Shown here: positions 50,912 through 62,064 of the stretch, piece by piece | Numbering within the stretch: position 1 is the stretch's first letter | How the letters are laid out: every line of letters starts with the position of its first letter | NCBI RefSeq assembly: GCF_030758345.1 | Contig: NZ_JAVAMO010000005.1 | Coordinates: 62,001-126,000, forward strand | Direction of reading: 5' to 3' | Origin: Ruegeria discodermiae | Lineage (GTDB): Bacteria > Pseudomonadota > Alphaproteobacteria > Rhodobacterales > Rhodobacteraceae | Length of the DNA: 64,000 bases | Made by a program: the position numbers and the translations under genes | The notes under the pieces: generated by a model | Told to the model about the DNA's origin: nothing | Databases searched by the model: none | What the model saw: the letters and a program-made list of their open reading frames with translations, nothing else

Positions 50912-51700
50912 TCAGAGATCGAACGTGGCAAAGACCGGCGCGTGGTCGCTGGGTTTTTCCCAACCGCGCGCGTCGCGCAGGATGCGGCTGGAATGAGCCG
51001 CGTTGCTGATATCGGGCGTGGCCCAGACATGATCCAGCCTGCGCCCCTTGTCTGCGGCATCCCAGTCTTTCGCGCGGTAAGACCACCAGCTATAGAGCTT
51101 GCCCTCGGGGATGTCGCGGCGGGTGATATCGATCCAGCCACCGGCCTCCTGTGTCTCGGCCAGTTGTTCGACCTCGATGGGTGTGTGCGAGACAACCTTG
51201 AGCAGTTGTTTATGCGACCAGACGTCATCCTCTTGCGGAGCGATATTCAGATCACCCACGAGAATGGATTTCTCGGGCGTCTCGGCGCGAAACCAATCGC
51301 GCATATCGGTGAGATAGTCGAGTTTCTGCCCGAACTTCTCGTTCACCTCGCGATCCGGCACATCACCGCCTGCGGGGACATAGAAATTGTGGATCACGGT
51401 GCCATTTTCCAGCCGCCCGGCCACATGGCGAGCGTGACCAAGACCGGCGAAATCCTTGTCGCCGATATCCTCGATCGGCAGGCGCGACAGGATCGCAACC
51501 CCGTTGTAACCCTTTTGCCCGCGCGCAATCAGGTGTGGATACCCCAGCGCAGCGAAACCTTCGGTGGGGATCTTTTCGACCGGGGATTTACACTCCTGCA
51601 GGCAGAGCACGTCAGGCCCTTCTTCCTTGAGCAATTGTTGCACGATCGGTTCGCGCAACCGGACCGAGTTGATGTTCCAGGTAGCAAGGGTAAAGGACAT
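50912..51700 (-). CDS. xth: Exodeoxyribonuclease III (AP endonuclease)
   Basis: A 262-residue EEP-family nuclease. FTLATWNINSVRLR, VLCLQECKSP (metal Glu), NFYVPAGGD, LVGDLNIAP (Asp-x-Asn) and RLDHVWATPDI plus the closing PSDHAPVFATFDL (Asp-His) are present. It repairs abasic sites. Start ATG 51700 begins MSFTLATWN; the few residues upstream in frame are unlike the family. Confidence 0.94.
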   Translation of the reverse strand: MSFTLATWNINSVRLREPIVQQLLKEEGPDVLCLQECKSPVEKIPTEGFAALGYPHLIARGQKGYNGVAILSRLPIEDIGDKDFAGLGHARHVAGRLENGTVIHNFYVPAGGDVPDREVNEKFGQKLDYLTDMRDWFRAETPEKSILVGDLNIAPQEDDVWSHKQLLKVVSHTPIEVEQLAETQEAGGWIDITRRDIPEGKLYSWWSYRAKDWDAADKGRRLDHVWATPDISNAAHSSRILRDARGWEKPSDHAPVFATFDL

Positions 51701-51792
51701 GGGAAAACTCTCGACAGGACGATTTCGGCGCACCCTATCGCGCTGCCCGACCCTGCGCCATCCCCAACCGCCCGGACAGTTGCTGCCCTATT

Positions 51793-51812
51793 AAGCCGGT
51801 TTAACCCGGCTT
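51793..51812. promoter_or_regulatory. Hairpin upstream of the NHLP-type precursor gene
   Basis: AAGCCGG (51793-51799) pairs with CCGGCTT (51806-51812) over six bases. It ends 37 bp before the precursor ATG, in the spacer shared with xth. No T run long enough for a terminator. It may be a leader structure or protein site. Confidence 0.3.
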
Positions 51813-51849
51813 TGGCCGCAAGATCAGGTTACACCCCCACCTTCTCTTC

Positions 51850-52179
51850 ATGAGAGCAGAAATTGAGATGATAAAGCCGCCCTTGAAATCGGACCTGCTG
51901 AACAGGGTCTGGACAGATAAGGCCTATCGCGCCCGGTTGCATGACAATCCGCATGCAGCCCTTGCGGAGGTCGGCGTACAGGTTCCGAACAGCATCCAGA
52001 TAAAGCTCGTAATGGATTGCGACCGAGTCCGGTATCTTCACATCCCGACCCCGCCACAACAGGGCGAAATCTCGGACCGTGATCTGCTCGACGCACAGGG
52101 CGGCACCACCCCGATCTGCGCGGCATCCGTGACCATCGTAACAACCCATATTGCAATTTCCGTCACGGCGCATGTCTGA
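51850..52179 (+). CDS. NHLP-type (nitrile-hydratase-leader) RiPP precursor-like peptide
   Basis: A 109-residue protein. Residues about 12-83 follow the NHLP leader pattern: SDLLNRVWTDKAYRARL, then DNPHAALAEVGVQVPNSI, a strand IKLVMDCDRVRYLHIPTPP, and EISDRDLLDAQGG. Gly84-Gly85 is a typical double-glycine cleavage site. The 24 residues after it carry no charge and hold 6 Thr, 4 Val, 4 Ile, 4 Ala, 2 Ser, 2 His, 1 Pro and one Cys (C90). The nitrile hydratase metal motif (CxLCSC) is absent, so it is not the enzyme. An in-frame ATG at 51868 may be the real start; neither has a strong ribosome binding site. No cyclase, radical SAM, lanthionine synthetase or peptidase-transporter gene is near, so any modification must act in trans. 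Confidence 0.7.
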   Translation: MRAEIEMIKPPLKSDLLNRVWTDKAYRARLHDNPHAALAEVGVQVPNSIQIKLVMDCDRVRYLHIPTPPQQGEISDRDLLDAQGGTTPICAASVTIVTTHIAISVTAHV

Positions 52180-52214
52180 GCAGCTGTCTCCGTAACCATC
52201 CCAAGGTTGCAGAC

Positions 52215-52351: not shown

Positions 52352-53038
52352 TCAGGCCACCAGCCGATACCCGCCGGATTCGGTAACCAATAGGCGGGCA
52401 TTGGACGGATCGGGCTCGATCTTCTGGCGTAGGCGATAGATGTGGGTTTCCAGCGTGTGGGTGGTAACCCCGGCATTATAACCCCAGACCTCGTGCAACA
52501 GCACGTCACGCGCCACGACCCCATCGGTGGAGCGGTAGAGGAATTTGAGGATATTGGTTTCCTTCTCCGTCAGACGGATTTTGCGCTCATCATCGGTGAT
52601 CAGCATCTTCATCGCCGGTTTGAACGTGTAAGGCCCAAGCTGGAACACCGCATCCTCGGATTGCTCATGCTGGCGCAGCTGCGCGCGGATGCGTGCCAGA
52701 AGAACGGGGAATTTGAAGGGCTTAGTAACGTAGTCATTGGCCCCGGCATCGAGCCCCAGAATAGTATCAGCGTCGCCATCATGGCCGGTCAGCATCAGGA
52801 TCGGGCTTTTCACACCTTGCTTGCGCATCAGACGGCACAGCTCGCGACCATCTGTGTCAGGCAGGCCCACATCCAGAATGACAAGGTCATACAGCGCCTC
52901 TTTCACCCGCTCCATCGCGTTCTGGCCATCGCTGGCCTCGAACACATCGAAATCCTCGGTCATGACCAATTGTTCGCTGAGCGCTTCACGCAAGTCTTCA
53001 TCATCATCGACCAACAGGATTTTCTTGAGCTGTGCCAT
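52352..53038 (-). CDS. cenR: OmpR-family response regulator, CenR-like
   Basis: A 228-residue regulator. Receiver domain (1-120): KKILLVDDDEDLREAL, phosphoacceptor D56 in VILDVGLPDTDG, and DYVTKPF with the conserved Lys. The effector winged helix (about 130-228) has LTEKETNILKFLYRSTDGVVARDVLLHEVWGYNAGVTTHTLETHIYRLRQKIE. The linker ARIRAQLRQHEQSEDA and the VTTHTLETHIYRLRQKIE block are those I recall from CenR, the envelope-controlling regulator of alphaproteobacteria. No sensor kinase is adjacent. The symbol is a family match from memory. Confidence 0.8.
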   Translation of the reverse strand: MAQLKKILLVDDDEDLREALSEQLVMTEDFDVFEASDGQNAMERVKEALYDLVILDVGLPDTDGRELCRLMRKQGVKSPILMLTGHDGDADTILGLDAGANDYVTKPFKFPVLLARIRAQLRQHEQSEDAVFQLGPYTFKPAMKMLITDDERKIRLTEKETNILKFLYRSTDGVVARDVLLHEVWGYNAGVTTHTLETHIYRLRQKIEPDPSNARLLVTESGGYRLVA

Positions 53039-61473: not shown

Positions 61474-62064
61474 ATGTACAAGGTTTATGGAAAACCGACG
61501 ACCAGAGCCTTCCGGGTTCTGTGGATGTTGGAAGAGATCGGCGCAGATTATGAGCTGATCCCCGCCCCATCCCGCAGCCCCGAGGTCACGGCGGTGAACC
61601 CGTCCGGCAAGGTGCCGGTTCTTGGGGTCGACGGGGCTTTTATCAGCGACTCCGCAGCGATCCTGACCTTTCTGGCGGATCGGCATGGCGCATTGACTCA
61701 CCCGGCAGGCACGATTGAACGAGCCAAGCAGGATGCGGTGACGCATTTACTGCTCGATGAGTTGGACGCGGTTCTCTGGACCGCCGCACGGCACTCCTTC
61801 GTTTTGCCCCAAGAGCGGCGGACCCCGGAGGTCAAGGACAGTCTGAAATGGGAGTTCGAGCGCAATACGACCCGATTGGCCGAACGGATCAATGGTACCT
61901 ATCTCTGCGGGGATCAGATGACGATTGCCGATATCATCTGCGTGCATTGCCTGGACTGGGCGGTAAGCGCGAAATTCCCGTTCGAGAACCAGATACTCGC
62001 GGATTATGCCGAACCTATCCGCGCGCGGGCTGCCTTTCAGCGGGTCAAGGCGGTGGTCTCTTAA
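61474..62064 (+). CDS. Glutathione S-transferase family protein
   Basis: A 196-residue GST. The thioredoxin-like N-terminal domain has YKVYGKPTTRAFRVLWMLEEIGADYEL, NPSGKVPVL (the cis-Pro loop) and ISDSAAILTFLAD (the Glu/Asp-Ser glutathione site). The C-terminal helical domain has the TIADI capping motif. Substrate unknown. AGGAACCGAC precedes ATG 61474. Its stop overlaps the stop of the convergent flavoprotein gene. Confidence 0.9.
   Translation: MYKVYGKPTTRAFRVLWMLEEIGADYELIPAPSRSPEVTAVNPSGKVPVLGVDGAFISDSAAILTFLADRHGALTHPAGTIERAKQDAVTHLLLDELDAVLWTAARHSFVLPQERRTPEVKDSLKWEFERNTTRLAERINGTYLCGDQMTIADIICVHCLDWAVSAKFPFENQILADYAEPIRARAAFQRVKAVVS

Follow-up and report, generated by a model that had tools for sequence, protein, structure and literature searches.

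In the prochlorosin and synechococsin systems, many precursor genes are located away from the gene of the modifying enzyme. ProcM has 29-30 precursors and SyncM has 79 (PMC10783134, PMC11667668; here and throughout, papers cited by PMC number are used for the excerpts drawn on). We analyzed a candidate precursor gene in a stretch of 64,000 nucleotides of Ruegeria discodermiae, positions 62,001 to 126,000 of contig NZ_JAVAMO010000005.1, which is called the window below. An earlier sequence-only reading had proposed an orphan precursor of a ribosomally synthesized and post-translationally modified peptide (RiPP) in this open reading frame (ORF), with a nitrile-hydratase-like leader peptide (NHLP) and maturation in trans. 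Our results suggested that the gene is probably a member of a dispersed, combinatorial family of class II lanthipeptide-type precursors, matured by a LanM and a LanJ and exported via a system on contig C81. The orphan status was not borne out, since the gene was one of 44 paralogues and its enzymes could be named.

The precursor gene and its paralogues

The precursor gene in the window was divided into the following features.
51850..52179, plus strand: NHLP-leader RiPP precursor gene, 109 amino acids (aa) from ATG 51850 (TIGR03793, PF02979)
51868..52104, plus strand: leader peptide, nitrile-hydratase-alpha-like, ending in Gly84-Gly85 (TIGR03793; Gly-Gly in 44 of 44 paralogues)
52099..52104, plus strand: Gly-Gly, predicted C39-peptidase cleavage site (both Gly invariant in the family; C39 exporter on C81)
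52105..52176, plus strand: 24-residue core, with Thr1 (52105-52107), Thr2 (52108-52110) and Cys5 (52117-52119), then a hypervariable Val/Ile/Ala/Thr/Ser tail

The window ORF matched the leader model TIGR03793 (leader_NHLP) over residues 12-84 with 53.6 bits (cut-off 50.9, E value 1.5e-14), which confirmed the proposed NHLP leader. It also matched PF02979 (NHase_alpha) with 32 bits (cut-off 27.2). The score for the nitrile hydratase equivalog TIGR01323 was 31.6 bits, below the cut-off of 249.85. TIGR03798, a model of Nif11-type leaders, was absent from the eight families that matched the ORF at E <=10, where filters drop most matches above 0.1. The 24-residue core after Gly84-Gly85 contained Cys90, six Thr, two Ser and two His and was without Asp, Glu, Lys or Arg. 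This confirmed the make-up first given for the 109-residue ORF, with the two His as an addition. ATG 51868 (103 aa) was better than ATG 51850 in its Shine-Dalgarno-like stretch and agreed better with the usual start of the family, and it is the probable true start. The structure predicted for the lone precursor was poor (mean predicted local distance difference test score 45.5) and was not used.

The host genome (5.85 Mb, 81 contigs) was then considered as a whole. A single-sequence protein search with the window ORF gave 47 matches, with the copies at about E 2e-14 or better. A family profile built from the alignment of the 44 copies themselves gave 48 matches. Of these, 44 were full-length copies, two were C-terminal fragments and the last two were parts of a single frame. 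This frame was a separate, nitrile-hydratase-like frame of 222 aa that matched the profile weakly. The full-length copies scored E 4e-33 to 1e-44 and were spread over 11 contigs, single or in clusters of up to six; 21 sequence stretches together with the window covered all of them. Apparently 42 of them were intact, one had an early in-frame stop and one was without its ATG. Because the same genome carries 44 full-length copies, itself included, the window ORF is, judged by its sequence, not a chance frame, and it is almost certainly a precursor of this family. The GC content was 0.60-0.63 in parts of the C81 cluster and 0.52-0.63 in the remaining stretches with copies, which therefore gave no compositional sign of contamination.

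The cores shared a fixed beginning. Position 1 was Ser or Thr in all 44 copies, position 2 in 40, and position 5 was Cys in 43, so that Ser/Thr1 and Cys5 were both present in 43 of 44 cores. Exactly one Cys was found in 41 cores, the sum of Ser and Thr was 5-12 per core, and 39 cores had no charged residue or His ahead of the last six residues. The mean pairwise identity was 0.49 for the leader and 0.283 for the tail (position 6 on), compared with 0.244 for shuffled tails (946 pairs). For pairs with a leader identity of 0.7-0.8 (n = 8), the tail identity averaged 0.245. Two of the four closer pairs had nearly identical tails, which suggested that some copies are recent. As far as these identities go, the core tails are constrained in composition far more than in sequence. 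The invariant Gly-Gly, conserved leader and variable core supported the proposed cleavage site and the assignment as a RiPP precursor. The expected contrast of conserved leader and variable core held among the paralogues, but no orthologue was found in which to follow it.

Adjacent Ser/Thr pairs were rarer than expected in the 43 distinct tails (22 vs 76, z -8.5), as were Val/Ile/Leu pairs (65 vs 98 expected, z -4.9); the copies are paralogues, and these z-scores are not fully independent evidence. A Ser/Thr spacing of 4 was commoner (z 3.6) and a spacing of 2 rarer (z -2.3). A strict L/D-style alternation of Ser/Thr was rejected, with a weak parity z of 1.8 (0.9 with five C-terminal residues trimmed; adjacent-pair number fixed). 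A 612-bp duplicate was seen between L028:8399-8767 and L033:8135-8572, with upstream and leader parts 87% identical and tails only 39%. This contrast would fit a replaced core or very rapid change. A short copy at L039:8426-8641 had a leader of only about 35 residues and an intact GG-TTPVC core, as a remnant or a minimal leader.

The enzyme cluster and its altered cyclase

One match to PF13575 (LanM), two to PF03412 (C39) and one to PF02624 (YcaO) were found in the host genome. The LanM and the stronger C39 match were located on C81 beside six precursors, and the weaker C39 match was a C39_2/TPR protein. The gene order in stretch L022 (C81:102001-122000) was an ABC2-like transporter (cut by the stretch end), the C39-peptidase transporter, an HlyD-type protein, four precursors, the LanM, a dehydrogenase and two precursors on the opposite strand. 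The LanM scored 554 bits with TIGR03897 (cut-off 304). The exporter models TIGR03796 and TIGR03794 gave 920 bits (cut-off 853.3) and 217.5 bits (cut-off 156.2), and TIGR03797 gave 477 bits against a cut-off of 709.4, with the matched ORF cut by the stretch end. Because the one LanM and the one NHLP-type C39 exporter of the genome are both on C81, maturation of all copies in trans by this cluster, as in the prochlorosins, is apparently the best reading. It is very likely that the window precursor is matured by these enzymes. The sequence-only reading had called for a genome search for a LanM and a C39-peptidase ATP-binding cassette (ABC) transporter; both were found elsewhere in the genome, in line with its proposal of maturation in trans.

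The dehydratase residues were kept in the host LanM (Lys, DxHxxN, Asp, Arg/Thr). Conserved equivalents were present for CylM Lys274, Asp347, His349, Asn352, Asp364, Arg506 and Thr512, which are seven of the nine named residues (left out: Asp252, His254), with the correspondence drawn by motif and spacing, not by alignment with CylM. The roles of these residues in CylM have been described (PMC4550811). Dehydration of the core is predicted with good confidence.

The cyclase domain was different. All three zinc ligands were replaced, by Ala, Phe and Ala, when compared with LanMs of other alphaproteobacteria. Ala stood at the first zinc Cys and Phe-Ala at the Cys-Cys/Cys-His site, with FAG in place of CCG, and the His of the GLxHG motif was kept. 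These columns are presumed to be the zinc ligands from their motifs and from their agreement with three P. galeata residues named in PMC11356792. Both zinc motifs were kept in 15 of 15 further LanMs from alphaproteobacteria, each taken with 12-20 kb of sequence. Some of these LanMs came from one genus and one had a frameshift (a 16th, a partial match in G623, was left out). A LanJ homologue (E <=1e-5) was absent from the stretches around these 15 genes. With 185.8 bits for the class II model against 74.3 bits for the class III model, the host cyclase has the appearance of a class II domain that has been altered. ThurKC, a class III enzyme, likewise has Phe at one zinc position (PMC10604976).

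The dehydrogenase gene adjoined lanM on C81. It is predicted to be of the LanJ_A type and to reduce dehydroalanine (Dha) and dehydrobutyrine (Dhb). LanJ_A enzymes reduce Dha, and RodJA also reduces Dhb (PMC11519912). A tblastn search of plasmids (best 30 of 955 matched records) gave Azospirillum B510 (45%) and Pseudanabaena galeata (45%) as the top matches, both beside a LanM. Pediococcus plasmids, Staphylococcus aureus plasmids and a pMRC01 gene came next among the matches listed. This pMRC01 gene, of MDR type, followed LanM-type genes and was 32.6% identical to the host dehydrogenase over 88% (E 1e-45). We take pMRC01 to be the lacticin 3147 plasmid and the matching gene to be ltnJ. The host was alone among 385 genomes of its class in having this LanJ (E <=1e-30; at most four candidates scored per genome). 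The LanJ homologue of Pediococcus pentosaceus pMD136 (L199:6878-7993) shared its cluster with ABC transporters and a HopA1-family protein, and no LanM was annotated in that stretch.

The zinc ligands of LanM were altered in the LanJ clusters of the host (3/3), P. galeata (3/3) and Azospirillum (2/3). The loss of three ligands in P. galeata was already reported in PMC11356792, section 3.6. In P. galeata pPg_03 the LanJ homologue (L162:8968-10068) adjoined the zinc-free LanM, and section 3.6 of that paper does not mention it. A Nostoc LanM (UHCC 0926) had two of three zinc ligands altered. No LanJ was found in the stretch read around it, and the cores of the neighbouring NHLP and Nif11 precursors (five with a visible core) had no Cys. 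The Nostoc and P. galeata LanMs grouped together in a tree of 17 LanMs. A single origin of zinc loss was rejected in this tree, where three changes are needed to account for the four altered-site enzymes and well-supported branches force two of these; the reading is tentative given several long branches and differing letter make-up.

Predicted fate of the core

The following course is proposed. LanM would bind each leader in trans, phosphorylate Ser and Thr in the core and eliminate the phosphate to give Dha and Dhb. The loss of the cyclase zinc ligands then leaves three fates for Cys5, namely zinc-free closure by the enzyme between residue 1 or 2 and Cys5, a spontaneous ring, or a free Cys5. 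LanJ would turn the remaining Dha and Dhb into D-Ala and D-aminobutyrate (D-Abu), and this reduction to D-residues is reasonably probable. The exporter would cleave after Gly-Gly and secrete an uncharged, mostly hydrophobic peptide with D-residues interspersed among L-residues, which is likely to be membrane-active. We infer hydrophobic peptide products that carry D-residues and no more than one thioether ring, placed at the N terminus, and the limit of one ring agreed with the sequence-only reading. Of the chemistries raised there, dehydration by LanM, joined by LanJ_A reduction of Dha/Dhb, is likely, and azole formation was not indicated, as the only YcaO found pairs with TfuA and both are about 93 kb from any copy on their contig.

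The evidence on the ring itself was divided. The retention of Cys5 together with Ser/Thr1 argues for a ring. The lost zinc ligands and the Cys-less P. galeata core argue against an enzyme-made ring. We give an N-terminal (methyl)lanthionine an even chance. The main alternative is a linear peptide with D-residues, in which LanM would be a pure dehydratase, LanJ would reduce its products, no thioether would form and Cys5 would have another role, for instance in a disulfide dimer or in contact with lipid or metal. The replacement of all three zinc ligands in the host and the altered sites of the two nearest LanJ-bearing clusters are consistent with this alternative. So are the cores of those clusters, since the P. 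galeata core had no Cys and, in two clear Azospirillum frames, one core had one Cys and the other had none. The P. galeata LanM was judged unable to cyclise by its authors (PMC11356792, section 3.6), and CcaM dehydrates without forming lanthionine (PMC10676384). However, the Cys fixed at position 5 together with Ser/Thr1 in 43 of 44 cores speaks against a linear product, and class III cyclases function without zinc (PMC10604976). The sole Cys-less core was also without Ser/Thr2, as were three Cys-bearing cores, and carries little weight here. Taken together, we consider the linear alternative unlikely, but the strongest of the rivals.

A degenerate nitrile hydratase alpha subunit or a decaying, productless gene family could explain the PF02979 match, the two broken copies and the two fragments. 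However, 42 copies have kept a start and an open frame through Gly-Gly, and almost all have kept Cys5, against a scrambled tail. The equivalog score was far below its cut-off, which spoke against the degraded subunit named as a refuting case in the sequence-only reading, and the genome has the separate 222-aa frame. This explanation is highly improbable. NHLP leaders also serve pathways of azole (thiazole/oxazole-modified microcin, TOMM) and proteusin type. Such maturation, by the YcaO adjoining TfuA on C12 (L045:113-2658) or by a radical S-adenosylmethionine (SAM) epimerase, is equally improbable, because one Cys in 41 of 44 cores leaves little to heterocyclise, the YcaO-TfuA pair and its nearest precursor copy on C12 are about 93 kb apart, and the enzyme cluster among the precursors is LanM/LanJ. 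No PoyD-type radical-SAM epimerase (TIGR04517) was matched in the host genome, but none was matched in the control genomes either.

Several points weigh against the LanM/LanJ-matured lanthipeptide-type family as proposed. Recognition of all copies in trans by one LanM is inferred from the shared leaders and from the lack of another PF13575 protein in the genome. The loss of zinc could mean that LanM forms no ring, in tension with the strict retention of Cys5. Some LanM-like proteins are free of zinc and have no role with peptides, as with CA_C0082, in which the dehydratase residues are also lost (PMC10301443). A strict link between LanJ and zinc loss is contradicted by pMRC01, with a LanJ homologue together with a zinc-intact LanM, and by Nostoc UHCC 0926, with a zinc-altered LanM and no LanJ in the stretch. 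The broken copies and fragments indicated that some decay is under way. In addition, beta-strand or membrane packing, and not chemistry, might account for the tail pattern.

As a tentative proposal, which we put at somewhat below even, a LanM without zinc-dependent cyclisation and a LanJ would act as a general converter of Ser/Thr to D-residues for dozens of scrambled hydrophobic cores in trans. The cyclase would be repurposed for a zinc-free, single N-terminal ring or kept to support dehydration. If this is true, it would be a radical-SAM-free route to D-amino-acid peptides and a combinatorial library in one alphaproteobacterial species. More generally, the family proposed here would give an alphaproteobacterium a large lanthipeptide system in which one enzyme serves many substrates, with an NHLP leader and an unusual enzyme pair. 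Zinc-free ring closure by a class II LanM becomes testable, as does the writing of many D-residues into arbitrary hydrophobic peptides by a LanM/LanJ pair. The latter would offer peptide engineering a useful leader-guided tool.

Distribution, genomic setting and comparison with known systems

The family profile at E <=1e-10 matched 4 of 394 genomes of the host's family (at most 12 candidates scored per genome), namely the host and three single hits. One of these was another NHLP protein and two were in frames of nitrile-hydratase size, and no such core was found in the 393 other genomes. The congener G001 gave no profile match at E <=1e-6. In a GTDB scan with the profile, which may leave out records of the host or near relatives, 235 stretches matched, 136 were confirmed and 80 were kept. 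In these best 80 of 136 confirmed loci, 84 ORFs matched the profile and only 7 were <=190 aa; the longer frames are probably mainly nitrile hydratase. A GG[T/S][T/S]xxC core was present in 0 of these 84 ORFs. LanM was present in 7 of 394 genomes of the family and in 9 of 385 genomes of the class, and both counts include the host. Viral contigs had no LanM or precursor relative, and in plasmids the precursor had a single weak match, to an NHLP peptide of Nostoc (28%). In another alphaproteobacterium, L198 (G092:C42:4000-19597) contained seven NHLP-type profile hits whose cores were quite different, and two LanMs were on other contigs. Neither an alphaproteobacterial expansion of this kind nor the combination of a zinc-free LanM with a LanJ as such was described in the parts of the open-access literature drawn on.

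The surroundings of the window gene were as follows.
51771..52209, no strand: precursor-bearing 439-bp stretch, replaced by 48 bp in congener G001 (comparison with G001)
50912..51700, minus strand: xth, exodeoxyribonuclease III-like flanking gene, housekeeping, outside the pathway (name from the sequence-only reading)
52352..53038, minus strand: CenR-like two-component response regulator, flanking, outside the pathway (name from the sequence-only reading)

The housekeeping character given earlier to these two neighbours was supported. In G001 the xth-cenR flanks were 88-90% identical to the window and the precursor site was empty. The regulator adjoined xth in 6 of 11 further family loci (L166-L176), and those genomes had no profile hit. 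The window gene was gained in the host or lost in G001, and from this comparison gain is likelier.

The neighbours of other copies were also examined. A DDE transposase gene (L025:9287-10219) was about 0.3 kb from a precursor pair, one member of which had lost its start codon. Two unknown families were repeated near several copies, one at L026:7632-8201, L028:9070-9465 and L031:5314-5838 and the other at L031:8742-9329, L032:7713-8300 and L034:5069-5749, and both may be linked to the spread of copies. The members tested matched nothing in PHROGs and nothing above cut-off in Pfam. Pfam searches of nine neighbouring proteins gave this DDE transposase, one protein with RTX repeats, one nucleotide cyclase and one weak dirigent model. 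Carriage by a mobile element was rejected, with PHROGs matches for 0 of 7 neighbouring proteins and no dispersal mechanism shown, one transposase apart. A common upstream promoter motif was also rejected, as the apparent motif was the coding end of the preceding tandem precursor. DsbA-fold proteins adjoined precursors at L022:14001-14609 (PF01323) and L023:8140-8844 (by eye only).

The P. galeata pPg_03 cluster, cyanotin-like according to its authors (PMC11356792), was similar to the host in its zinc-replaced LanM, adjoining LanJ homologue (45%), hydrophobic core and an NHLP-type secretion gene annotated nearby. It differed in its Nif11 leader, in having one full precursor and a short Nif11 gene, and in its core without Cys. 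Azospirillum sp. B510 pAB510a likewise had a LanJ homologue (45%) beside a LanM with 2/3 zinc ligands replaced, and several NHLP precursors with hydrophobic cores. However, these cores had no TTxxC start and the stretch had only four precursor frames, one cut by its end. This record (L161, 1245898-1265016) is without annotation.

Lacticin 3147 and rodencin are two-peptide systems with several rings, unlike what is proposed for the host. Both are similar in having a LanJ_A dehydrogenase (LtnJ, RodJA), which acts on LanM products to form D-Ala and, in the case of RodJA, D-Abu as well (PMC11519912). The zinc motifs are kept in the one LanM of pMRC01 that was covered in full, unlike in the host LanM. 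The LanMbC enzymes of the dehydrazoles (CcaM, carnazolamide) dehydrate without forming lanthionine (PMC10676384), as the host LanM may do, but their cyclase is of class III and acts after YcaO, whereas the host domain is class II by score and has no linked YcaO. Compared with the prochlorosins and synechococsins, the leaders are of NHLP and not of Nif11 type. The ProcM group has the CCG zinc motif (PMC10783134), whereas all zinc ligands are replaced in the host LanM. Further differences from the prochlorosins are the one fixed Cys in 41 of 44 host cores, the presence of LanJ and a host apparently of another phylum. What the host shares with the prochlorosins and synechococsins is a single LanM alongside tens of precursors whose leader is conserved and whose core varies.
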